This document shows, piece after piece, positions 3,837 through 14,857 of a DNA stretch of 35,550 nucleotides. Both the position numbers and the translations under genes were made by a program. This DNA is from Nitrospiraceae bacterium (GTDB lineage: Bacteria; Nitrospirota; Nitrospiria; Nitrospirales; Nitrospiraceae): assembly GCA_900299245.1 (NCBI GenBank), contig OMJA01000065.1:1-35550 (forward strand), written 5' to 3'. The notes under the pieces are model-generated. The model worked only from the letters and a program-made list of their open reading frames with translations, was not told where the DNA came from and did not search any database. Every line of letters starts with the position of its first letter. The stretch's first letter is position 1.

Positions 3837-4135
3837 GGCACATGCCGACTAGCCATGAAAGTGGTTGTGCTTGAAAAAACCAGAGCTTAGAGGCGGCGGC
3901 CTAAGGTCGCACACGTAGAGGGTCTGTGGAGTGGAAAAAAACGGCATGCCGCCGTGCAAATCTGCCCAGGCAGGATCAGCACCCTAAAAACCGAGCATTC
4001 AATAGAAAAGCCGGTGGCTCGGCGCTTCCGCTTAGGAGACAGGGCGGATGTCCGTCGATTCTTTTCGTGTCCGTTCATTTACCTTTCTTTCGGCACTGCG
4101 TCTAATTCATCAGGCAGGGTCGGAAGGAGGGTGTT
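3837..4135. other. Intergenic spacer between divergent genes
   Basis: With the flanking leader this is a ~350-bp gap between divergently transcribed genes. Short open frames here lack ribosome sites and family character. GGAAGGAGG (4122-4130) at the right end is the ribosome site of the gene at 4136. I see no convincing RNA gene, repeat or terminator. Confidence 0.5.
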
Positions 4136-4576
4136 ATGCGACCGGTCATTTCACAATCGAGTGCGGTTCTTCTCTCTTGTGTGTTGCTGCTGTCCGGATG
4201 TACGTCGACCTTGGTTCGCGACGAGGTAAAGCGAACAGCCGGATTGGATGGACATTGTGCCGGAAGTGAGTGGGTGGACGATTCGTCGCTCGCAGTCTTG
4301 CCGGTGCCGGTTGTGGCGTTTTTCGTGCCCCACTTTGATTTACATAAGATTACAAGCGAGGGGTATCTCAACCGGTGCGGATCCTCGACGCGGGTCGTGA
4401 ATCGCGAGGTGTCAGTCAACACCGCGGCCTGCATTCCGGCCGGGCTGACCCGAATCATCACGTTAGGTATCTGGCAATGGTGTCCGGCCCATGTCGCCTG
4501 GTCGGCGGATGTATTGGCGGAGCAGACCAGGCCTGCCGCGCTGTCTCCCGAGGAGCAGAAAAGGCCGCGATCGTAA
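4136..4576 (+). CDS. Lipoprotein, possibly Bor/Iss-like
   Basis: A 146-residue lipoprotein precursor with a lipobox LLLSGC near residue 22 after a hydrophobic signal. The strong site GGAAGGAGG precedes the ATG. The C-terminal half contains LTRIITLGIWQWCPAHVAW, which resembles the FITLGIYTPLEARVYC ending of the phage-lambda Bor lipoprotein family by eye; Cys residues occur in comparable positions. The assignment is tentative. If correct, the protein would sit in the outer membrane. It starts an envelope-protein block, with the next gene 28 bp downstream. Confidence 0.75.
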   Translation: MRPVISQSSAVLLSCVLLLSGCTSTLVRDEVKRTAGLDGHCAGSEWVDDSSLAVLPVPVVAFFVPHFDLHKITSEGYLNRCGSSTRVVNREVSVNTAACIPAGLTRIITLGIWQWCPAHVAWSADVLAEQTRPAALSPEEQKRPRS

Positions 4577-4604
4577 CCAGGCAAGAACGAGGGGAGAGGT
4601 TGTT

Positions 4605-6041
4605 ATGAAAAGGATAGGGGAGTGGAAGCTGTGGACGATGGGGCTTGTAGTTGCGGGATTTCTGACCGGGTGCGGCAGCGGCGGTGGAGAGGCAACGGTG
4701 AGTACAGCCGGCAGCGGCAGCGGATCGGCGGCCGCGACGGGGACTATTACAGGGTTCGGCAGTGTGTTCGTGAATGGCAAGAGGTTCGAGACAGATCATG
4801 CATCGTTTCTCGTGGATGACCAGCCTGGGACTCAGAGCGATCTCAAGCTGGGGATGACGGTGGCGGTAACGGGCACGCTGAGCAACAATCAGCGATCGGC
4901 AACGCTGGTTCGCCAGCAGGATGCGGTCGAGGGGCTGGTGCAGTCGGTTGCTGCCGATGGCTTGAGCCTCGTCGTCATGGGGCAGACGGTCTTGGTTGAC
5001 AACACGACGATCATCGACAACAACATACCAGGGCAAAATATTCTCAACCTTCTCGCCGGGACCGATTTTGTGGAAGTGAGCGGCCATGTTCGTCCGAGCG
5101 GTGTGATCCAGGCGACATTCATCGAAAAGAAGCCGGCGGGGACGGTGACGCCGGAAGTGCGGGGATATGTCAGTGGCCAGAATGAGGCGGCGAGGACGTT
5201 CCGGATCGGAGCGCTCACGGTCAACTATGCGACGGCGGTGATCGGAGATATGCCGAATCCGGCGGGGAACGCCTGGAACGGTCTGTTGGTCGAGGCGAAA
5301 GGGACTGCTTTTACTGCGGCCACAACGACGCTCACCGCGACACAGGTGGAGCCGGAGCAGGACGGAGTCAGCGGCAATGTCGACGAGTTCGAGGTAGAGG
5401 GAATTGTAACGCAGGTCCTCGGTTCCGGAGATTTCTTTGTCGGATCAAGGCACGTGCAAACCACGGCCAGCACGGAATTTCGCGGGGGAGCGATCGACGA
5501 GATCGTCCTTGGAGCCAAGCTGTCGGTCGAGGGGCGGTTGGCCAGCGGGATTCTCATGGCGAATCACGTAAAGTTCCACGCCAGCGTGCGATTGGAGGGG
5601 AACATCGAGGTGGTCAATAGCGGCACACATACCGTCAGACTGGTTGGGCTCCCAGGAGTGACGGTGACTGCAAACAGTCAGACGACATTCGACGGTGGCG
5701 TGACCGGCGTAGCCGACCTGGTCGCGGGCCAGCACCTGCGGGTGCGTGGCCGGGTGAACGGAACGAATGGGGTCATCGCTACGCGCATCGAGCTTCGGTC
5801 TGCAAGTGACGATGTCGATCTCCAAGGGCCGGTCCAGGCAGCCGCCAATCCTGCGCTCACTATCCTCGGTGTAACCGTCAGTACCGCGGGATTGTCTGAG
5901 GATGAGTTCAAGGGAAGGAGTGACAGCAGTATCGGGCGAACCGCGTTTTTCAACGCGCTCTCGGTCGGGACTGTGGTTAAGGTCAAAGGGCGATTCAGTG
6001 GCGGGGGTGTGGTGTGGAGGGAAGCCGAATTGGAGGAGTAG
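4605..6041 (+). CDS. Lipoprotein with about six DUF5666-like repeats
   Basis: A 478-residue lipoprotein. ATG 4605 is preferred over upstream in-frame starts because GGGGAGAGG precedes it and a lipobox follows (FLTGC, Cys23), then a Gly/Ser linker. The mature part is about six tandem ~65-70-residue beta-rich units, roughly residues 46-110, 113-182, 185-255, 262-327, 330-402 and 404-476. Each opens with a G-[TNV]-[IV] strand and ends with a G..V.V.G.[LVF] motif such as LGMTVAVTGTL, LGAKLSVEGRL and VGTVVKVKGRF. The first unit (GTITGFGSVFVNGKRFETD) is typical DUF5666. The function of the domain is not known; OB-like beta folds are suggested. The protein is probably anchored at the inner face of the outer membrane or on the surface. 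Confidence 0.85.
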   Translation: MKRIGEWKLWTMGLVVAGFLTGCGSGGGEATVSTAGSGSGSAAATGTITGFGSVFVNGKRFETDHASFLVDDQPGTQSDLKLGMTVAVTGTLSNNQRSATLVRQQDAVEGLVQSVAADGLSLVVMGQTVLVDNTTIIDNNIPGQNILNLLAGTDFVEVSGHVRPSGVIQATFIEKKPAGTVTPEVRGYVSGQNEAARTFRIGALTVNYATAVIGDMPNPAGNAWNGLLVEAKGTAFTAATTTLTATQVEPEQDGVSGNVDEFEVEGIVTQVLGSGDFFVGSRHVQTTASTEFRGGAIDEIVLGAKLSVEGRLASGILMANHVKFHASVRLEGNIEVVNSGTHTVRLVGLPGVTVTANSQTTFDGGVTGVADLVAGQHLRVRGRVNGTNGVIATRIELRSASDDVDLQGPVQAAANPALTILGVTVSTAGLSEDEFKGRSDSSIGRTAFFNALSVGTVVKVKGRFSGGGVVWREAELEE

Positions 6042-6088
6042 GGAACCGTCGGGCAGGGTCAATGACAAGAGCAACTGGAGGAACAATC

Positions 6089-6652
6089 ATGACTCATGGA
6101 AAAGAAATGGTCTGGAGAGAATTGATGCTCGGTGCAGTGGCCGGTATCATTTTGGTGGTGGGCGGGCCGGTGTTTGCTCAAGATGCAGACCCAGCCGATG
6201 CACCGGCCGTGCGGACTGACAATCGTGGTCCGGGGTCACTCAATAGCGGTCCGGGGTCGCTGCATAGCGGTCGGGATCGGCAGGGAGAGCGTGGCCGTCG
6301 CGGGGGGGATGATCTTCGCGTGGCGCAGGCCGACGATGTGCGGCAGGAAGATCGTCAGCAGGACCGTCGACAGGACCGGCAAGCTGATCGGCAACAGGAT
6401 CGCCGAGAAGATCGGCGCGAAGATCCACGGGACGACCGTCGGTCGAATGCCGGGGGAGATGTGCGGGGATTGGATCGTGCGGATCAGGTGGCGGGCGAGC
6501 ACGGGCGTGAAGGTCGGGACAATGCGCGGGCCGCGCAGCTGGATCGCCCCAATCGCATCGAGCGAGCGGAACGTCCGCAACGGCCGGAGCGCCCTGAGCG
6601 GCCGCAGAGACCGGAACGGCCGGAGCGGCCTGAGAGGGCCGGACGAAATTAG
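6089..6652 (+). CDS. Secreted Arg/Asp/Gln-rich low-complexity protein
   Basis: A 187-residue precursor. ATG 6089 has CTGGAGG upstream and begins a signal peptide (hydrophobic residues about 12-28, cleavage near VFAQDA). The rest is almost entirely disordered and highly charged. It contains SGPGSL repeats, a DRQQDRR/REDRRED block (about residues 88-120) and a C-terminal array of RPQRPERPE-type repeats. No enzymatic motif is visible. A shorter protein with the same DRQQDRRED composition is encoded at 10967-11293 on the other strand. Possible roles are surface or periplasmic polyelectrolyte, metal or polymer binding, or a chaperone-like buffer; none is proven. It lies 47 bp after the DUF5666 gene in the same direction. 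Confidence 0.75.
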   Translation: MTHGKEMVWRELMLGAVAGIILVVGGPVFAQDADPADAPAVRTDNRGPGSLNSGPGSLHSGRDRQGERGRRGGDDLRVAQADDVRQEDRQQDRRQDRQADRQQDRREDRREDPRDDRRSNAGGDVRGLDRADQVAGEHGREGRDNARAAQLDRPNRIERAERPQRPERPERPQRPERPERPERAGRN

Positions 6653-6713: not shown

Positions 6714-6763
6714 ATGGTATTGAAGCTGGCGTGAAGCGTAATGAGAGAAAGGATGCCGAATCG

Positions 6764-7660
6764 ATGAGAGCGAAGAAGTGGGCCGGGATACTTGCCGGTG
6801 TGGTGGTGTTGGCGTTATGGGGAGTCGACGGACAAGCTGCAGACAAAGCCGATCAGGGTCCGGCGTCGCCGGAGCAGAATTGGCAGGTGGGCTTTACCCC
6901 GAGTTATAGCAGCGGAAAATTTGGAACGGATACGACCAGCACTTTTTTTTATGCGCCCTTATCGATTCGTCGGTTATTCAAAGATGGTGATGTGACGTTC
7001 GTCATTCCGTTCGTAACGGCAACATCCGATGGTCGAGTGACGCTGGTGGGAGGAAATCCTGTTGTGGTTCAAGACAACAGGGGAAGCAACAGTGGCTCAG
7101 GATCAAGTAGCTGCGAGCCAGGTGAAGACAAGCCATCCTGTCTCACTGGCCGAACACCAGGGAAGAAAACCACGACTGCTGGTCTTGGCGATATCATTCT
7201 CAAAGGCCGCTACTATGTCGTCGAAGAAGGTGATTTTCTGCCGCTCATTGCCGTCACAGGGCGGATGAAGCTGCCAACTGCTAGCGCTAGCCAGGGTTTG
7301 GGAACTGGGGCATTCGACTATGGGTTTGGGGTGGAGATGTCCAAGATGCTGGGGGAGAAGTGGATTGCATTTCTGGATGGAGGGTACAACATCATTGGGG
7401 ATCCGGATGGCCTCACGCTTCAGAATCAGCATTGGTATGACGTAGGAGCCGGTTACTACGTCACACGAGATCTTTTGGCAAGTGTGTACTATGAAGAGTA
7501 CCGCGCGATCACTCCCGGATTTGTGAATGCCCGTGACGTTTATTTTGCCATGAACTACACGGCTTCTGCTGCCTGGCGCTTCAGTGGCGGAGTCACGCTC
7601 GGGCTTTCCGACGGCGCTCCTGATTTTACCTTGACAATTGGAACCAGCTACCGCTTTTGA
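6764..7660 (+). CDS. Outer-membrane beta-barrel protein, phenol MetA-like transporter family
   Basis: A 298-residue precursor. ATG 6764 is chosen because AAAGGA lies 9 nt upstream and a good signal peptide follows (WAGILAGVVVLALWG, cleavage near GQAAD); a GTG at 6731 would add 11 charged residues. The mature protein is rich in alternating beta strands typical of a porin: NWQVGFTPSYSSGKF, LIAVTGRMKLPTAS, GTGAFDYGFGVEMSKM and WIAFLDGGYNIIGD. It ends with an aromatic residue (TSYRF) as outer-membrane barrels do. The GDIILKGRYYV and KLPTAS...GTGAFDYG segments recall the MetA-pathway phenol-degradation/transporter-like family. A Gly/Ser-rich loop carries two Cys (about 118-127). Substrate unknown. 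Confidence 0.72.
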   Translation: MRAKKWAGILAGVVVLALWGVDGQAADKADQGPASPEQNWQVGFTPSYSSGKFGTDTTSTFFYAPLSIRRLFKDGDVTFVIPFVTATSDGRVTLVGGNPVVVQDNRGSNSGSGSSSCEPGEDKPSCLTGRTPGKKTTTAGLGDIILKGRYYVVEEGDFLPLIAVTGRMKLPTASASQGLGTGAFDYGFGVEMSKMLGEKWIAFLDGGYNIIGDPDGLTLQNQHWYDVGAGYYVTRDLLASVYYEEYRAITPGFVNARDVYFAMNYTASAAWRFSGGVTLGLSDGAPDFTLTIGTSYRF

Positions 7661-7672
7661 GAGGCGGTGTTG

Positions 7673-7701
7673 TTTACGAATCGAGGGATGGTGCGTCTAA
7701 T
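7673..7701 (+). promoter_or_regulatory. Candidate sigma70 promoter of the ECF sigma operon
   Basis: TTTACG (7673-7678), a 17-nt spacer and TCTAAT (7696-7701) resemble -35 and -10 boxes in the only sizeable gap before the sigma gene. Initiation near 7708 would give a ~55-nt leader. Confidence 0.42.
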
Positions 7702-7762: not shown

Positions 7763-8344
7763 ATGCCACTGGAACAGCGAGAAGGCCCTGACGATGCGCA
7801 GCTTGTGGCGCGCAGCCTCAAGCAGGATCATGAGGCTTTCGGCCAACTGATCGACCGGCATGCCACAGTGATCGTCAATCTGGCCTATCGGATGGTCGGG
7901 AATCGGGCCGAAGCCGAGGATCTGGCCCAGGAGACGTTTCTCTCGGCGTTCAAGGCCTTGTCAACCTTTCGGGCGGACTCAAAGTTTTCGACCTGGCTGT
8001 ACCGGATTGCATCAAACAAGTGCAAAGACTGGTTACGCGTCAAGCACCCCGGACAGGCGCAGCAGGATGTCGATGTGGAGGAGATGCTGGATGTTCATGT
8101 GGCGGAGGAGCGGACGCCCGAGCAGCTGCTCTCTCAGCAACAGGTGGCGCTGGAATTGGAACGGGCGATCCAGCGATTGCCGCCTCTGTACCGGGAAGCG
8201 TTTATCTTGAAGCATGTCGAAGGGTTGAGTTACGAAGAAATGCAGGAGATTCTGGGTGTGAACGGCGATACCTTGAAGATGCGAGTCTATAAGGGGCGGG
8301 TGCAGCTCAGTCGAGAACTGGCGGAACTGAATCCGACGCGATAA
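7763..8344 (+). CDS. ECF-type RNA polymerase sigma factor (RpoE-like)
   Basis: A 193-residue sigma-70 family factor. Region 2 spans about 22-92 with the core-binding DLAQETFL (53-60) and the -10 recognition segment FSTWLYRIASNKCKDWL (75-91). After an acidic linker, region 4 (about 128-185) contains RLPPLYREAFILKHVEGLSYEEMQEILG, a helix-turn-helix that would read the -35 element. There is no region 1.1 or 3, as expected for ECF factors. GCGGAG lies upstream of the ATG. The next gene encodes a single-pass membrane protein shaped like an anti-sigma factor, so this sigma is probably held inactive at the membrane. It likely transcribes its own operon and other envelope genes. Confidence 0.93.
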   Translation: MPLEQREGPDDAQLVARSLKQDHEAFGQLIDRHATVIVNLAYRMVGNRAEAEDLAQETFLSAFKALSTFRADSKFSTWLYRIASNKCKDWLRVKHPGQAQQDVDVEEMLDVHVAEERTPEQLLSQQQVALELERAIQRLPPLYREAFILKHVEGLSYEEMQEILGVNGDTLKMRVYKGRVQLSRELAELNPTR

Positions 8345-8373
8345 GGTCCGGCGATTGATGTAGGGTGACGGCC

Positions 8374-9054
8374 ATGGATGAACAGGAACTGATGGTGCAA
8401 CGGTTTCTTGATCAAGATCTGACGCCGGAGGAGCGCGTGGTGTTTCTCCGGTCTGTGGATATCGATCCTGCGTTGCGCCGGACCTGGCTCAATCTTGAGA
8501 TGGTGGTGGCCGAGGCGGCGCAACTTCCGAGAATGACTCCGTCGGCCAAGTTCCTTAGCCAATTGAAAGCCAAAGTGGCGTCTCCTCCTGTTCGTCTCTG
8601 GGATCGAGTGCGAATGGCGATCACCATGCCGCATACACTGGAATTGAATCTGGCCGGAGCGATGGCCGCAGCCTGCGTGGCGGTGGTGGCGATGGCGGGG
8701 GTGCTGCGGATGATGCAGGAGCGGATCGTGGAGGTGCCGGTGGGTCAGGCGCCCGTGCAAACGATTGCCTCCCCGGCGAATCCGGAACCCAAAGTCTTTG
8801 TCCGGCTGGTGTTGCTGCAACCGGGGGCACAATCGGTCTCGGTCGCAGGAGATTTCAATGGGTGGAATCCAGGGCAAACCAAGCTGCAGCGATCGGAGGG
8901 AGGGATGTGGACGGCCACCATTCCTCTCAAACCCGGGCGGTATCAATATATGTTTGTCATCGACGGCAAGCAATGGATTGCCGATCCGCTGGCCGGCGAA
9001 GCGTCCGGCGATGGATTCGGATCAGAAAATGCGGTGCTCGATGTCAGTATCTAA
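8374..9054 (+). CDS. Membrane anti-sigma-like protein with periplasmic glycogen-binding (CBM48/E-set) domain
   Basis: A 226-residue protein; ATG 8374 is preferred to a GTG three codons earlier. Residues 1-90 are a helical cytoplasmic segment of the kind found in anti-sigma factors (DEQELMVQRFLDQDLTPEER, then ALRRTWLNLEMVVAEA). They lack the HxxxCxxC zinc motif of ZAS proteins. A single membrane helix spans about 91-113. After a Pro/Val/Ala linker, residues 139-226 form an AMPK-beta/isoamylase-N-like domain. Its conserved marks are VSVAGDFNGWNP (Trp164), GMWTATIPLKPGRYQYMFVIDG (Trp179) and QWIADP (Trp201). With the sigma gene 29 bp upstream, the arrangement predicts an anti-sigma whose outer domain senses an alpha-glucan or a protein. 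That sensing role is an inference. Confidence 0.85.
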   Translation: MDEQELMVQRFLDQDLTPEERVVFLRSVDIDPALRRTWLNLEMVVAEAAQLPRMTPSAKFLSQLKAKVASPPVRLWDRVRMAITMPHTLELNLAGAMAAACVAVVAMAGVLRMMQERIVEVPVGQAPVQTIASPANPEPKVFVRLVLLQPGAQSVSVAGDFNGWNPGQTKLQRSEGGMWTATIPLKPGRYQYMFVIDGKQWIADPLAGEASGDGFGSENAVLDVSI

Positions 9055-9107
9055 ACCTAGGATCCGTTCCCTTGCATCGAAGCGGGCCGTCAGTTACTCT
9101 TCGGTCC

Positions 9108-9470
9108 ATGATGAGCGGAATCAGAGCTGCGATTCTCGTAATGGTATTCGCCGGGATGCTGAGCGGGTGCGTGTCGGCGATCAAGCCGGATTTCCCCAGG
9201 CCGGTCACGGGCGGCGTGCGGTTTACGCATCTGGCGCCTTCGGCCCACACCGTGTACGTCGTGGGTTCGTTCAATGGATGGGTCAAGGGTGCGACACAGA
9301 TGAAACAAGCAGGGAAGACCGGGGTGTGGACCGCCGAGGTGCTCATGCAGCCGGGGGAATATACGTTCATGTACCTGGTTGACGGGAAAGAGTGGGTCGT
9401 GCCGCCGCTGGCGGAGGATTTTGTGACGGATGGATTTGGACAGACCAACGGAGTCGTGATCGTTCGGTAA
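9108..9470 (+). CDS. CBM48/E-set (isoamylase early-set) lipoprotein
   Basis: A 120-residue lipoprotein with signal peptide and lipobox MLSGC (Cys21). Adjacent ATGs at 9108 and 9111 are both possible starts. Almost the whole mature protein is one glycogen-binding-type domain. It contains HTVYVVGSFNGWVKG (Trp58), GVWTAEVLMQPGEYTFMYLVDG (Trp74) and EWVVPP (Trp96), ending in GFGQTNGVVIV. It is clearly homologous to the C-terminal domain of the preceding anti-sigma-like protein (DGFGSENAVLDV end). It lies 53 bp after that gene and 4 bp before the next one. A lipid-anchored copy of the sensor domain suggests a soluble or outer-membrane partner binding the same ligand, or a competitor for it. Confidence 0.85.
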   Translation: MMSGIRAAILVMVFAGMLSGCVSAIKPDFPRPVTGGVRFTHLAPSAHTVYVVGSFNGWVKGATQMKQAGKTGVWTAEVLMQPGEYTFMYLVDGKEWVVPPLAEDFVTDGFGQTNGVVIVR

Positions 9471-9474
9471 CGCG

Positions 9475-10359
9475 ATGCGCAGGACCACGAACATACAGAT
9501 ATATCTGGTCGGGCTGGTGATGTGTCTGGGCACGTCGCCCGCACTGGCGGACTCCCTCTCGACGCAGGATCGGGAGGAGATCAATCGGCTGCGCTCGGCT
9601 CAAGGCCATTCCGCTGAAGAAGTGAACGGCCTTCTAGAGCAGGTGATCAAAGCCGGTGAGAAGGGGCTGCCGACCGAACCGCTGGCAAACAAAGTTAAAG
9701 AAGGCCTGGCCAAAGGCGTCGAGCCGAAACGCATCGATCCGGTCGTGCGCCAGCTGGTCACGCACTTTGAATCGGCACAGGAAATTCTGCAAGAGTCGAC
9801 AGCCAAGGGAATGGTTGATGCATTGCAAGGCAATCGCCAACGGGCGCTCGAAGGGTTGGCCGAGGCGTTGAGCCGCGGCACAACAGCCGAAGAGGTGCGG
9901 GAGCTGGCGAAGACCTCGCAAGGGGGAGGGGGCAAGGTTTCGCAAGAGTCGCTAGCCTCCGGTGCGAAGAGTCTGGCGATTCTCAAAGAAGCTAGAATTC
10001 CCTCGAAGGATGGCACGGCGCTGGTCGCGGAAGGCATCCGGCAGGGCTACCGGTCGGCTGAGTTGGCCGATCTTGCCCGCGAACTCAAGCGGCGGGGTTC
10101 CGATATTCAGCAGGGCCGGGTCAATCTCCAGAACATCAAAGACCAGGTGTCGAAAGGTCAGCGTGCAGATCGGATCTTCCGCGACAGCGATCAAGGGGGA
10201 TCCGGGAGTGGCGAGCGGATGGACCGCAGCGGCAGCTCAGACCGCGGTGGCCGGGATGATCGCGGCGGTCATGATGACCGCAGTGGCAGCGGCGGCCGCG
10301 ATGACCGGGGCAGCCGGCCAGACCGGAGCGGGAGCGGTCATGGCGGACGCGATCACTAA
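9475..10359 (+). CDS. Secreted helical protein with Gly/Asp/Arg-rich tail
   Basis: A 294-residue precursor starting 4 nt after the lipoprotein stop, hence the same operon. The signal peptide cleaves near SPALADS (residue ~26). Residues 27-235 are strongly helical with a loose repeat: short helices separated by G[LVI].P or G.[TS].EE turns (GEKGLPTEPLANKVKEGLAK, GVEPKRIDPVVRQLV, SRGTTAEEVRELA, GYRSAELADLARELK). The last ~60 residues are low complexity, with RDDRGG, HDDRSGSG and GGRDH. I do not recognise a characterised family. Context suggests an envelope component controlled by, or working with, the CBM48 sensor proteins. Confidence 0.82.
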   Translation: MRRTTNIQIYLVGLVMCLGTSPALADSLSTQDREEINRLRSAQGHSAEEVNGLLEQVIKAGEKGLPTEPLANKVKEGLAKGVEPKRIDPVVRQLVTHFESAQEILQESTAKGMVDALQGNRQRALEGLAEALSRGTTAEEVRELAKTSQGGGGKVSQESLASGAKSLAILKEARIPSKDGTALVAEGIRQGYRSAELADLARELKRRGSDIQQGRVNLQNIKDQVSKGQRADRIFRDSDQGGSGSGERMDRSGSSDRGGRDDRGGHDDRSGSGGRDDRGSRPDRSGSGHGGRDH

Positions 10360-10505: not shown

Positions 10506-10561
10506 ACGGCCGCGCGTTGAGTCAAACACGGGATATCACCTTTTATCCTACGGAGGTACCG

Positions 10562-10888
10562 ATGAAGACGATCGTATTGGCTGTTCTTGCGGTGACGCTC
10601 GGTATGAGCGGGACGGTCTTTGCCCAGGCTGAAACGCCGGTCATTGATCAGCGCCAGGCGAACCAGGAGAAGCGGATCGATCAGGGCATTGCCAGCGGCC
10701 AGTTGAATCAGCGGGAGGCCAACCGCCTGGACCGCGAGCAGAACCGGATCGACCGTATGGAGAATCGGGCGAAGGCCGACGGGGTCGTGACGGATAAAGA
10801 ACGGGCTCGAATCGGTGCTGCTCAGAATCGCGCTTCGCGCCATATCGCGCGTGAAAAACACGATGCCCAGGGAGCCCGGCATCGGTAG
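10562..10888 (+). CDS. Small secreted helical protein
   Basis: A 108-residue precursor with GGAGG 6 nt before the ATG. The signal peptide (residues 1-21) ends in TVFAQA. The mature part is charged and helical with a visible motif pair: IDQGIASGQLNQREANRLDREQ and, about 30 residues later, KADGVVTDKERARIGAAQ. Each has the G.[LV]...E...[LI] pattern common in small secreted proteins of Gram-negatives. No enzymatic residues are seen. It has its own terminator 25 bp after the stop, so it is likely monocistronic. Function unknown. Confidence 0.83.
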   Translation: MKTIVLAVLAVTLGMSGTVFAQAETPVIDQRQANQEKRIDQGIASGQLNQREANRLDREQNRIDRMENRAKADGVVTDKERARIGAAQNRASRHIAREKHDAQGARHR

Positions 10889-10966: not shown

Positions 10967-11293
10967 CTATCGGCCGCGGCCGCCACGATCGGCGCGGCGG
11001 TCTTCCCGACGATCCTGCTGCCGATCCATTTGACGATCTTGCTGGCGATCCTGCTGCCGGTCCATTTGACGGTCCTGCTGCCGGTCTTCGCGTCGATCTT
11101 CCCGACGATCATTCTGCCGGTCTTCCCGGCGGTCCTGCTGCCGATCCTGTTGCCGATCCGCGCGCCGATCTTCCTGGCGAACATCGGCCTGTGCAGAGGC
11201 GAGGCTGGGGTTCAAGACCCCGGCCACCGGCAGAGCAGAGAGGATGGCGAGACCCATCAGAATGCTGGTTTTCACAATGGCGGTTGGCTTCAT
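10967..11293 (-). CDS. Secreted DRQQDRRED-repeat protein
   Basis: A 108-residue precursor; GGAGG lies 8 nt before the ATG. The signal peptide (hydrophobic residues about 8-30) cleaves near SLASAQA. The mature ~70 residues are almost only Asp, Arg and Gln with a few Met, Glu and Asn, in units such as DRQQDRR, EDRQNDRR and DRQMDRQQ. It ends in RGGRGR. The polymer is near charge-balanced and probably disordered. The coding DNA is a degenerate tandem repeat, which also leaves a long spurious open frame on the opposite strand. It shares composition with the protein at 6089-6652. Function unknown; proteins of this type are frequent in Nitrospira-like genomes to my knowledge. Confidence 0.75.
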   Translation of the reverse strand: MKPTAIVKTSILMGLAILSALPVAGVLNPSLASAQADVRQEDRRADRQQDRQQDRREDRQNDRREDRREDRQQDRQMDRQQDRQQDRQMDRQQDRREDRRADRGGRGR

Positions 11294-11441
11294 AAGAAAT
11301 CCTCCGTGAGAGCGTAAGAATGGGTGCAGTGTGTTGGCGAGTGAGGGGCCGCTTCTCTGCTCTCTGGAGGAAGGCCTCTCAATGCCGTTCTATGGGTTAG
11401 ACGGGGGGTGCAGAAAAATGTAAACGCACGGTCAATGCAGA

Positions 11442-11503: not shown

Positions 11504-11908
11504 TTACCGGAACACGCCGGCCAGCACGGCCGGGCTAAATCCGACGCTCACCGTATCTCCACTCCGGACTTGTGGAACAACTTGTCCATCCTGGGAATTC
11601 AGTTCCATTTCGCCGCAAAGGAGTTGCGTGGCCGGCGCCGGACAGGCCACCAGAACCATCGTGCCGACGGAGACGCCATTGATAAAGACATTCTGGGGAG
11701 AAATCGTGGAGCCGGCCAGATCTTCGGCCTGGACGTTCAGGCGTTTCCGATTGCCGCGCTCACGGTATTCGGCCTTGCCGGATGCCGCGCCGCTGACCAT
11801 GCTGGCCTTTAAGCGGACCTCTGCCGATTGGGCCTGGGCCGGCAGGGTTGATGCGACCATTACGCCGACGAATGCAACGAGAGAAAGAGACAGTCCGATC
11901 TTTGTCAT
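11504..11908 (-). CDS. Secreted hypothetical protein
   Basis: A 134-residue precursor. ATG at 11908 has CTGGAGG just upstream and starts a clear signal peptide (LSLSLVAFVGVMVASTLPAQAQS); the frame continues 30 codons upstream without signal character. The mature protein begins EVRLKASMVSGAASGKAEYRE and appears all-beta. It contains QNVFINGVSVGTMV, a CPAPATQLLCGEM segment with two Cys that could form a disulfide, and SGDTVSVGFSPAVLAGVF. The GKAEYRERGNRKRLNVQAEDL motif resembles small secreted proteins annotated as hypothetical in environmental genomes. No catalytic residues are recognised. Confidence 0.8.
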   Translation of the reverse strand: MTKIGLSLSLVAFVGVMVASTLPAQAQSAEVRLKASMVSGAASGKAEYRERGNRKRLNVQAEDLAGSTISPQNVFINGVSVGTMVLVACPAPATQLLCGEMELNSQDGQVVPQVRSGDTVSVGFSPAVLAGVFR

Positions 11909-12193
11909 AGTGACCTCCAGATTGAATATATGGCCACGGCCTTGCCGCACATTCTCCTGTGGCCTCCCCCACGGCACGATGGGTGGAGAATGGAGCACAG
12001 AAGGACACGTGGCCTCCTGAAGAGTCAGACGAGGGAAATGCCAATTCGTAAATAGAACATCCTAGTGGGATGACATTTGTTTCAGTAAAAGGCCGTGTGT
12101 GTAGGCTATAGGAGGCAGGTGAAGATGAGCAGCGCAAGGGGGGGGAGAGCGAGGCCGCGGATAGAAAGGCTGGTTTCGTGGATGGAATGACCC
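11909..12193. other. Divergent intergenic region
   Basis: The ~285-bp spacer separates a minus-strand secreted protein from the plus-strand tRNA-nucleotidyltransferase fusion. The left edge holds the ribosome site of the minus gene and, at 11929-11934, a possible minus -10 (TATATT). I see no RNA gene or repeat. The right end contains the promoter described next. Confidence 0.45.
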
Positions 12194-12208: not shown

Positions 12209-14857
12209 ATGCAAGTCGTGACGACCCACCACAATGCGGATTTCGACGGCCTGGCCTCGATGGTCGCTGTACGGAAATTGTACCCCGATGTACGATTGGT
12301 GCTGTCCGGCGGGGCGCAGGAGACCGTGCACGCCTTTCTCTCAGCACATGATCTGAATCTCACCAAGCTCAAAGATCTCGATCTCGCGCAAGTGTCAACG
12401 TTGATTCTGGTCGATACCCATGAGCCGGAGCGCATCGGCCTGTTCAAGCAATGCTGGCTGGATCCGAAGGTCGAGGTGCAGGTGTTCGATCACCATGGAG
12501 CAGATTCCTGCCGGACCGGGATACCGGTGCCCGGGAAAACCATCAGCCAGGTCATTGAGACGGTCGGCGCGACGGTGACGATGCTGATTGAACGGGTACG
12601 GGATGCCGGTGTGCCGGTTACGCCGCTCGAAGCGACTGTGTTGGCGCTCGGCCTCTACGATGAAACCGGGTCGTTCTCCTATTCCTCCACTACTCCGCGC
12701 GATCTGCAGGCCGCGGCGTTCCTTCTTGGCACAGGGGCGGATTTGAAACTGGTGATGCAGACGTTGCGTCGGCCGCTCGACCCGAACATCGTCGCGTTGC
12801 TGAACGATTTGCTGCAGCATAGCGATGTGCACTATCTGGAAGGCCGGAAGGTGCTGGTGGCGACGAGCACCTTCGACCGCGATCGCGTGGAAGCGGCGGA
12901 AGCGGTGCATCAACTGGCCGAGCTTGAGGGCGTGGATGCGGTCGTGGTTGCCGTGGTGAACGAGGAGCATGTGGAAGTCATCGGGCGCAGCCGTGTGCCG
13001 GAGATCGATGTCGGATGGATCGCGCAGGAGTTCGGCGGCGGCGGGCATGCGGTCGCGGCTGCCGCGATCGTCAAAGGGCAGACACTCACGGAGGTGAAGG
13101 AGCGACTCGTCCAGTTACTGACGGAGCGGTATCGGCCGACGCTGTTGGCGAAAGATGTCATGACCAAGCCGGTCAAGACGATCGGCGGAGACGCCACGGT
13201 CGGCGAGACGGAACAACGGATGACCAATTATGGCGTGAACGTGCTGCCGGTGTTGGACGGCAAAGATCGCTACGCCGGGCTGGTGAGCCGGGAACAGATC
13301 CAGAAGGCGCTCTTTCACCGGTTGGACAAGCTGACGGCGGCCGATATTCTCCAGGCTGATCAGTTCACCGCTCATCCGGACACCGATTTCTATACGATCG
13401 AGCAGGCGATGCTGGAGCGTAATCAGCGGTTTGTTCCGATTCTTGAGGGCACGAGAGTCGTCGGGGTGATCACGCGCACGGATTTGCTCCGGGCCTGGCA
13501 TAACGATGTCCTGCGTTCCGTGAGGCTTCGCCCCAAACTGGCGGACCCTACCGGCGTGCCCGGGCTGCTGCATCACCGTACGCTCAAGCGACAATTACAG
13601 GACAAGCTGCCGCCGCGTCTGTTTACGCTGCTCAAGGAGGCCGGCCAGCTGGCTGACCGGCTGGACCTGCCGCTCTATGTGGTGGGCGGCTGTGTGCGGG
13701 ATCTGTTGCTCGGGATCCAAAACCTTGATCTCGACCTGGTGGTTGAAGGCGACGGGATTGCATTTGCGCGCAAGCTCGCGGCGGAACAGTCGGGACGCGT
13801 CAAGGTGCATGACCGATTCGGCACCGCGGTGATCGTGCTGCCGGACGGGTTCAAGCTCGACGTGGCCACTGCCCGCACCGAATATTACGAATATCCGACC
13901 GCGCTTCCGACCGTCGAGCAAAGCTCGATCAAAAAAGATCTGTACCGCCGTGATTTCACAATCAATGCCCTGGCGGTCCGCCTCAACGGCCGTGGATTCG
14001 GGGAGGTGCTTGATTTTTATGGCGGTCAGCGGGATCTGAAGAATCAGGTCATCCGCGTGCTCCATAGTCTGAGTTTCGTCGAAGATCCGACCCGGGTGTT
14101 CCGCGCGATCCGGTTCGAGACGCGGTTCGGGTTTCATCTCGGCAAAGACACCGTGGCGCTGATCAAGGCGGCGGTGAGAATGGCGCTCTTTAAGAAACTC
14201 TCCGGCCACCGGCTCTTAGAGGAGTTGAAGGCCCTCTGTTCGGAGCGGGAGCCGAAGTCCGGGGTGAAGCGGCTGGCCGAGCTCGACCTCCTCCGATTCA
14301 TTCATCCGAAGCTCGTCTGGACGTCACGGTTGGAGAAGTTGCTCCTCGCCGTCGAAGAAACCCTCGATTGGTATCGGCTGCTCTACTTGGATCACAGGCT
14401 GGAGTCCTGGCTGGTGTACATGATGGCGATTGCGGCGGTGTTGCCGGATCGCGGGGTGTCGGATCTCTTGAAGCGGTTTCCTTTCAGTGAGCGTGAAGCC
14501 ACGACATTGAAAGCGATGCGGGGCGGAGCCCACCGTTTGCTGCGGCAGCTGAGCAAGCAGCCGCCATTGAAGCCGTCCGGAGTCTTCCGGGCATTGGAAG
14601 GAGTGCCGGATGAAGCGCTCCTGGCCATCATGGCCCAGAGCCCATCCGACCGGGTGAAACGGCAGGTGTCGGCCTATCTCACCTCCTGGAGGCAGGCGAA
14701 ACCGTTGCTTACGGGGAAGGATCTTCAAGCCATGGGTATCAAGCCGGGGCCGATCTACAGCCAGGTGCTGAGCCGTCTTCGTGACGCGCATCTGGACGGG
14801 CTCGTCAAGACAGAGTCAGACGAGCGGACGTTCATCGAGAGCCTCATCCGCCGTTGA
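12209..14857 (+). CDS. DHH phosphoesterase / CBS pair / tRNA nucleotidyltransferase (poly(A) polymerase family) fusion
   Basis: An 882-residue three-part protein. Residues 1-305 are a DHH/DHHA1 phosphoesterase: HHNADFDGLAS (7-17), VDTHE, FDHH (93-96) and the DHHA1 GGGGHAVAAAA (about 276-286). Two CBS domains follow, about 314-372 (AKDVMTKPVKTI) and 377-437 (RFVPILEGTRVVGVITR). Residues ~485-880 are a class II nucleotidyltransferase: VVGGCVRDLLLG, the metal-binding LDLDLVVEGD, RRDFTINALAV and EDPTRVFRAIRFETRFGF. Such fusions are known in several phyla and some act as A-adding tRNA nucleotidyltransferases. The DHH part could be a nanoRNase or pAp phosphatase, and the CBS pair an adenylate sensor. 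Whether this one adds A only or CCA cannot be read here. No ribosome site precedes it. Confidence 0.93.
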   Translation: MQVVTTHHNADFDGLASMVAVRKLYPDVRLVLSGGAQETVHAFLSAHDLNLTKLKDLDLAQVSTLILVDTHEPERIGLFKQCWLDPKVEVQVFDHHGADSCRTGIPVPGKTISQVIETVGATVTMLIERVRDAGVPVTPLEATVLALGLYDETGSFSYSSTTPRDLQAAAFLLGTGADLKLVMQTLRRPLDPNIVALLNDLLQHSDVHYLEGRKVLVATSTFDRDRVEAAEAVHQLAELEGVDAVVVAVVNEEHVEVIGRSRVPEIDVGWIAQEFGGGGHAVAAAAIVKGQTLTEVKERLVQLLTERYRPTLLAKDVMTKPVKTIGGDATVGETEQRMTNYGVNVLPVLDGKDRYAGLVSREQIQKALFHRLDKLTAADILQADQFTAHPDTDFYTIEQAMLERNQRFVPILEGTRVVGVITRTDLLRAWHNDVLRSVRLRPKLADPTGVPGLLHHRTLKRQLQDKLPPRLFTLLKEAGQLADRLDLPLYVVGGCVRDLLLGIQNLDLDLVVEGDGIAFARKLAAEQSGRVKVHDRFGTAVIVLPDGFKLDVATARTEYYEYPTALPTVEQSSIKKDLYRRDFTINALAVRLNGRGFGEVLDFYGGQRDLKNQVIRVLHSLSFVEDPTRVFRAIRFETRFGFHLGKDTVALIKAAVRMALFKKLSGHRLLEELKALCSEREPKSGVKRLAELDLLRFIHPKLVWTSRLEKLLLAVEETLDWYRLLYLDHRLESWLVYMMAIAAVLPDRGVSDLLKRFPFSEREATTLKAMRGGAHRLLRQLSKQPPLKPSGVFRALEGVPDEALLAIMAQSPSDRVKRQVSAYLTSWRQAKPLLTGKDLQAMGIKPGPIYSQVLSRLRDAHLDGLVKTESDERTFIESLIRR

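Follow-up and report, generated by a model that had tools for sequence, protein, structure and literature searches.

We analyzed a 35,550-nucleotide stretch of DNA (hereafter the window) from contig OMJA01000065.1 of the draft genome of a Nitrospiraceae bacterium (GCA_900299245.1), the nearest relatives of which are Nitrospira. Four genes follow one another on its forward strand, encoding a sigma factor, a membrane protein, a lipoprotein, and an exported helical protein that we call hel (table 1). A preliminary description, made from the letters alone, had proposed that they form one tight operon; the four open reading frames are real, lie exactly where it had placed them, and are separated by gaps of 29, 53, and 4 nucleotides. 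The first product contains Sigma70 regions 2 and 4 and is devoid of region 3, the combination by which we recognized an extracytoplasmic function (ECF) sigma factor. The two CBM48 (AMPK-beta-type) domains announced for the next two products passed the Pfam cut-offs, as did the sigma factor domains (AMPK1_CBM 1.1e-10 and CBM_48 1.4e-10 in the membrane protein, 2.1e-9 and 1.8e-8 in the lipoprotein), and they account for all AMPK1_CBM matches in the draft genome. Their tryptophans were found at the expected positions (Trp164/179/201 and Trp58/74/96, respectively). No Pfam family matched hel in the scan of the window proteins. We propose, at about three chances in four, that these genes encode a transmembrane ECF sigma/anti-sigma signaling system with a periplasmic CBM48 sensor. 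That it is an envelope signaling system, as the preliminary description had predicted, is well supported because the genes are linked across phyla, the N-terminus of the membrane protein is homologous to zf-HC2 domains, and a promoter-like motif is conserved.

Table 1. Genes and promoter-like sites of the sigma factor cluster in the window (nucleotide positions).
Feature	Position	Strand	Remarks
ECF sigma factor	7763-8344	+	193 residues; Sigma70_r2 7.4e-22, Sigma70_r4_2 1.6e-14 (Pfam, above cut-off)
Membrane protein	8374-9054	+	Predicted N-terminal anti-sigma-type domain; transmembrane helix at about residues 93-112; CBM48 at residues 137-226 (about 8782-9051)
CBM48 lipoprotein	9108-9470	+	Lipobox LSGC; AMPK1_CBM/CBM_48 (Pfam)
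hel, exported helical protein	9475-10359	+	Nitrospira-type Arg/Asp/Gly-rich tail; linked to sigma and CBM48 partners
Promoter-like site GTTTAC-N16-CGTCTA	7672-7699	+	5' of sigma
Phenol_MetA_deg barrel, predicted outer-membrane	6731-7660	+	Pfam; kept 5' of sigma in Nitrospira
Promoter-like site ATTTAC-N16-CGTCTA	4077-4104	+	One mismatch; before small lipoprotein gene
Small predicted lipoprotein, LLLSGC	4136-4576	+	Predicted regulon member; no Pfam family
DUF5666-repeat protein	4491-6041	+	Likely start 4606; Pfam; predicted downstream of the 4077 site
Promoter-like site GTTTAC-N16-CGTCTA	11398-11425	-	Before Arg/Asp/Gln-repeat protein
Secreted Arg/Asp/Gln-repeat protein	10967-11293	-	Predicted regulon member
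Promoter-like site ATTTAC-N16-CGTCTG	12026-12053	-	Two mismatches; before small secreted protein unit
Small secreted protein	11504-11908	-	Predicted regulon member; no Pfam family

In the AlphaFold model of the membrane protein, helices at residues 3-12, 18-30, 32-49, and 58-68 precede a long helix (75-113) that contains the membrane segment, after which come a low-confidence linker and a beta-sandwich. The structural alignment that had been called for relates this sandwich to the AMPK-beta glycogen-binding domain (Z 13.5, root-mean-square deviation 1.4 over 81 residues); this was the closest fold, with cyclodextrin-bound structures among the matches, and in a search with the whole model CBM48 matches filled the list. 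The occurrence of CBM48 domains outside the inner membrane had been presented as an oddity. Location alone is ordinary, pullulanases being a known case, whereas the placement of such a domain on an ECF anti-sigma-type protein is indeed unusual.

The anti-sigma-like character ascribed to the N-terminus was borne out by profile comparison: the Nitrospira profile aligned with that of the zinc-type homologs at an E-value of 2e-11, and four membrane-protein homologs from other phyla passed the zf-HC2 cut-off. These profiles relate the N-terminus to the zf-HC2 anti-sigma domains and make the protein a predicted class I anti-sigma factor. The HxxxCxxC motif, already reported as missing, is absent from the window protein and present in homologs of other phyla; because zinc and non-zinc types are intermixed in a survey of class I anti-sigma domains (PMC7406223), its absence is no bar to membership of this class. 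The membrane protein might instead be a co-expressed envelope protein, the sigma factor being controlled otherwise, as the short N-termini of some Gemmatimonadota members would allow; however, the homology to zf-HC2 domains, the tight coupling to the sigma gene, and the layout with one membrane helix make this unlikely.

A search with the membrane protein yielded 49 Nitrospira-type loci (L033-L081), in all of which sigma factor, membrane protein, and lipoprotein genes are found in the same order. Wherever the contig is long enough, hel follows the lipoprotein gene, and almost all of these loci have the same predicted outer-membrane barrel 5' of sigma. The lipobox cysteine of the lipoprotein and its W58, W74, and W96 are invariant among 50 sequences, window included. 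Some Nitrospira genomes are without the system, and in one Nitrospira metagenome-assembled genome (L081, 5349-8360) frameshifts break the sigma, membrane protein, and hel genes, which may reflect either decay or an assembly error. A constant neighbor of the cluster in Nitrospira is an A-adding tRNA nucleotidyltransferase-type protein preceded by DHH, DHHA1, and CBS domains (window 12209-14857).

The first distant loci with hel beside the sigma/CBM48 pair were those of an Atribacteria, an Elusimicrobia, and a Gemmatimonadaceae metagenome-assembled genome and of a bacterium from an unnamed phylum. A hel profile seeded with four distant sigma-linked sequences retrieved hundreds of new matches, irrespective of their neighbors: in the phylum of the Gemmatimonadota centre (161 of 298 genomes), that of the Atribacteria centre (30 of 50), the unnamed phylum (4 of 4), the window's own phylum (51 of 296), the phylum of a Deltaproteobacteria metagenome-assembled genome (29 of 297), and Elusimicrobia (10 of 295). 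Counting as partners a sigma factor and a CBM48 protein encoded on the hel strand within 4.5 kb, 90 of 99 tallied loci had both; since 10 of the 99 were the same places fetched again, this hel-only search gives both partners in 82 of 89 distinct loci, and most of the seven exceptions are cut by contig ends. As a background rate, only two unrelated sigma matches occurred in 505 kb of the same extended loci. In nearly all hel loci, the sigma-adjacent protein has a strong membrane helix ahead of its CBM48 domain. As far as sequence can tell, the trio of sigma factor, predicted transmembrane CBM48 protein, and hel recurs in about six bacterial phyla, with hel as the near-constant partner. The conserved-neighborhood search that had been suggested thus returned both the 49 Nitrospira loci and these distant ones. 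We rejected a chance pairing confined to one genome because the linkage recurs across phyla; a chance or lineage-specific neighborhood without joint function is likewise contradicted by this linkage and by the order kept in Nitrospira, and we consider its probability negligible.

The composition of the module varies around this trio. A second small exported CBM48 protein is encoded in several loci of the phylum of the Deltaproteobacteria centre and in all five loci that we examined in other families of Nitrospirota. In many Gemmatimonadota, the module includes an additional barrel-like protein whose C-terminal domain is a CBM48. Gemmatimonadota often have two to four hel loci; in one genome (G064), the second (L150) also lies beside sigma and CBM48 genes, and therefore the module has multiplied in this group. 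One locus (L090, 3580-8836) has a run of CBM48 genes but no sigma: in one product two CBM48 domains accompany a long barrel-like part, another is a CBM48 lipoprotein, and in a third the CBM48 domain is joined to a part resembling a glycoside hydrolase. At L215 (3241-5420), hel and sigma adjoin an Lgt-like gene, possibly after loss of the anti-sigma gene. The folds retrieved with hel as the query were weak matches, mostly to designed or repeat helical proteins.

Alignment of the DNA 5' of the Nitrospira sigma genes revealed a promoter-like motif, GTTTAC-N16-CGTCTA, that stays conserved amid otherwise diverged sequence. About 1.2 exact matches would be expected by chance in the 570 kb of loci, computed with a spacer of 15-17. 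When one mismatch in GTTTAC was allowed, with a spacer of 16-17, a copy was found within 450 nucleotides upstream of sigma in all 49 loci with a recognized gene, window included. The motif also precedes a small lipoprotein gene in 30 loci, where the DUF5666 gene comes next, a secreted Arg/Asp/Gln-repeat gene (13/13), and the gene for another small secreted protein (6/7), with denominators that are approximate because the genes were recognized by short peptide patterns. Its presence before sigma and these three exported-protein units leads us to predict a small local regulon made of the sigma operon and the three units of the same cluster. The motif is rare in the rest of the genomes: in genome-wide pattern searches, the exact N16 form with CGTCTA gave 1-3 matches in the eight system-bearing genomes searched and 0-1 in eight relatives that lack the system. 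The cluster encodes several Arg/Asp-rich exported proteins (window 6014-6652, 10559-10888, and 10967-11293, with repeats such as DRQQDRRED), and hel ends (at about 10180-10359) in a tail similarly rich in these residues, which is absent from the hel of other phyla.

Several observations weigh against the proposed ECF sigma/anti-sigma system with a CBM48 sensor. The model of the membrane protein has a predicted template modeling score of 0.39, and its relative domain placement is therefore unreliable. When the N-terminal profile was compared with solved structures, the best match in the PDB was not an anti-sigma, and RsiW came at an E-value of 0.12, behind pyridoxine 5'-phosphate synthases, which we regard as chance matches. 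Among the hel loci short of a partner, L215 has sigma but no CBM48 protein, and L295 has no recognizable sigma. The module sigmas did not fall into one clade when placed in a quick tree: those of Nitrospirota and Gemmatimonadota group, together with two from the phylum of the Deltaproteobacteria centre, at a support of 96, but the others form separate groups among unrelated ECFs. Finally, a dyad search 5' of sigma for a promoter motif common to the other phyla gave nothing above shuffled sequences.

In the mechanism that we favor, the N-terminal domain of the membrane protein would hold the sigma factor at the membrane, and the CBM48 domain would bind a periplasmic ligand, a glycan with somewhat better than even odds, which hel, the lipoprotein, and the barrel might present or gate. 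A change in ligand state would then inactivate the anti-sigma, probably through regulated proteolysis, and the freed sigma would amplify its own operon and induce the secreted proteins. As to the ligand, the preliminary description had predicted that an alpha-glucan or a protein frees the sigma factor; this part is less secure than the system itself, the stacking positions being kept in most but not all homologs. All 103 anti-sigma-type CBM48 domains have a tryptophan at the position of AMPK W100, and 78 of the 103 have one at that of W133; in the barrel-like class, 29 of 30 domains keep both. A third class of the tally, termed small, comprises cut anti-sigma reading frames as well as true small proteins and was set aside; some of its domains have a tyrosine in place of the first tryptophan. 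This retention favors contact through aromatic residues, whichever the ligand.

An alpha-glucan is a plausible ligand. Sensing of an alpha-glucan or a similar glycan of the envelope, an exopolymer, or the environment, in the manner of a carbohydrate sensor such as RsgI/SigI, would fit both these tryptophans and the AMPK-beta fold with its cyclodextrin-bound matches. On the other hand, the W133 position is lost in a quarter of the homologs, that of K126 is a methionine in the window, no glucan-processing gene was recognized in the predicted regulon, and Nitrospira are not known to feed on external glucans, so that we place this possibility somewhat below an even chance. Alternatively, the CBM48 domain may be an E-set domain that binds protein: by contacting hel, the lipoprotein, or the barrel it would survey the outer membrane, and the system would signal that the envelope is damaged or misassembled. 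The partners are indeed exported and located in the envelope, the barrel-like protein added in Gemmatimonadota has a CBM48 domain of its own, and no glycan-related gene is as constant as hel; however, the exposed aromatic positions are strongly retained, which is better explained by ligand stacking, and this alternative is possible rather than probable. Equally tentative is the more general proposal that, across phyla, an ECF system senses an alpha-glucan-like polymer, either of the envelope or of the environment, and turns on secreted proteins in response. Its sensor would be a periplasmic glycogen-binding-type domain on the anti-sigma, acting together with hel and with lipoproteins or barrels that have a CBM48 domain, and nitrifiers that are not known to feed on glucans would be among its carriers.

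What began as a single operon has become a recurring signaling module: hel, an unnamed family, is its near-constant partner, a promoter-like motif has been defined, and a local regulon is predicted, none of which the preliminary description had noted. Its carriers, such as nitrifying Nitrospira and Gemmatimonadota, have ecological weight, and it may be a widespread, unstudied means by which bacteria sense their envelope or the sugars around them. If CBM48 binds a glycan, the module would be an ECF counterpart, in diderm bacteria, of carbohydrate sensing by RsgI; if it binds a protein, CBM48 would have been reused as a sensor of envelope integrity. No description of a CBM48 domain linked to an ECF anti-sigma was found in the literature searched, which left most subscription journals out of reach.

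Like the SigI/RsgI systems of Clostridium thermocellum (PMC4711584), the present one has adjacent sigma and predicted anti-sigma genes; the motif 5' of its sigma gene makes it a candidate for autoregulation as well. It differs in its sigma factor (ECF instead of SigI), in its sensor (CBM48 instead of CBM3, CBM42, or PA14), in its diderm hosts, in the extra partner hel, and in a predicted regulon in which polysaccharide-degrading genes were not recognized. We rejected membership of this family because the sigma has ECF domains and the RsgI N-terminal domain is not among the Pfam matches of its partner. In ECF52 (SCO4117) of Streptomyces (PMC8999054), an extracytoplasmic carbohydrate-binding domain is likewise tied to an ECF sigma, but it is fused to the sigma itself, whereas sigma and sensor are here separate proteins encoded by separate genes (7763-8344 and 8374-9054), which excludes membership. 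A FecI/FecR/FecA system was also rejected, as the partner has no FecR match and the adjacent barrel is a Phenol_MetA_deg protein and not a TonB-dependent receptor. With the AMPK beta glycogen-binding domain, the sensor shares its fold and two stacking tryptophan positions, but it has a methionine at the K126 position and is predicted to be extracytoplasmic, on a transcriptional regulator. The membrane protein also resembles class I zf-HC2-type anti-sigmas such as RsiW, RskA, and RseA (PMC7406223), with which it shares a zf-HC2-related helical N-terminus, a membrane anchor, and a gene adjoining that of an ECF sigma; in Nitrospira it lacks the zinc motif, as do RskA and RseA, and it stands apart from the class in having a CBM48 domain as its putative sensor.
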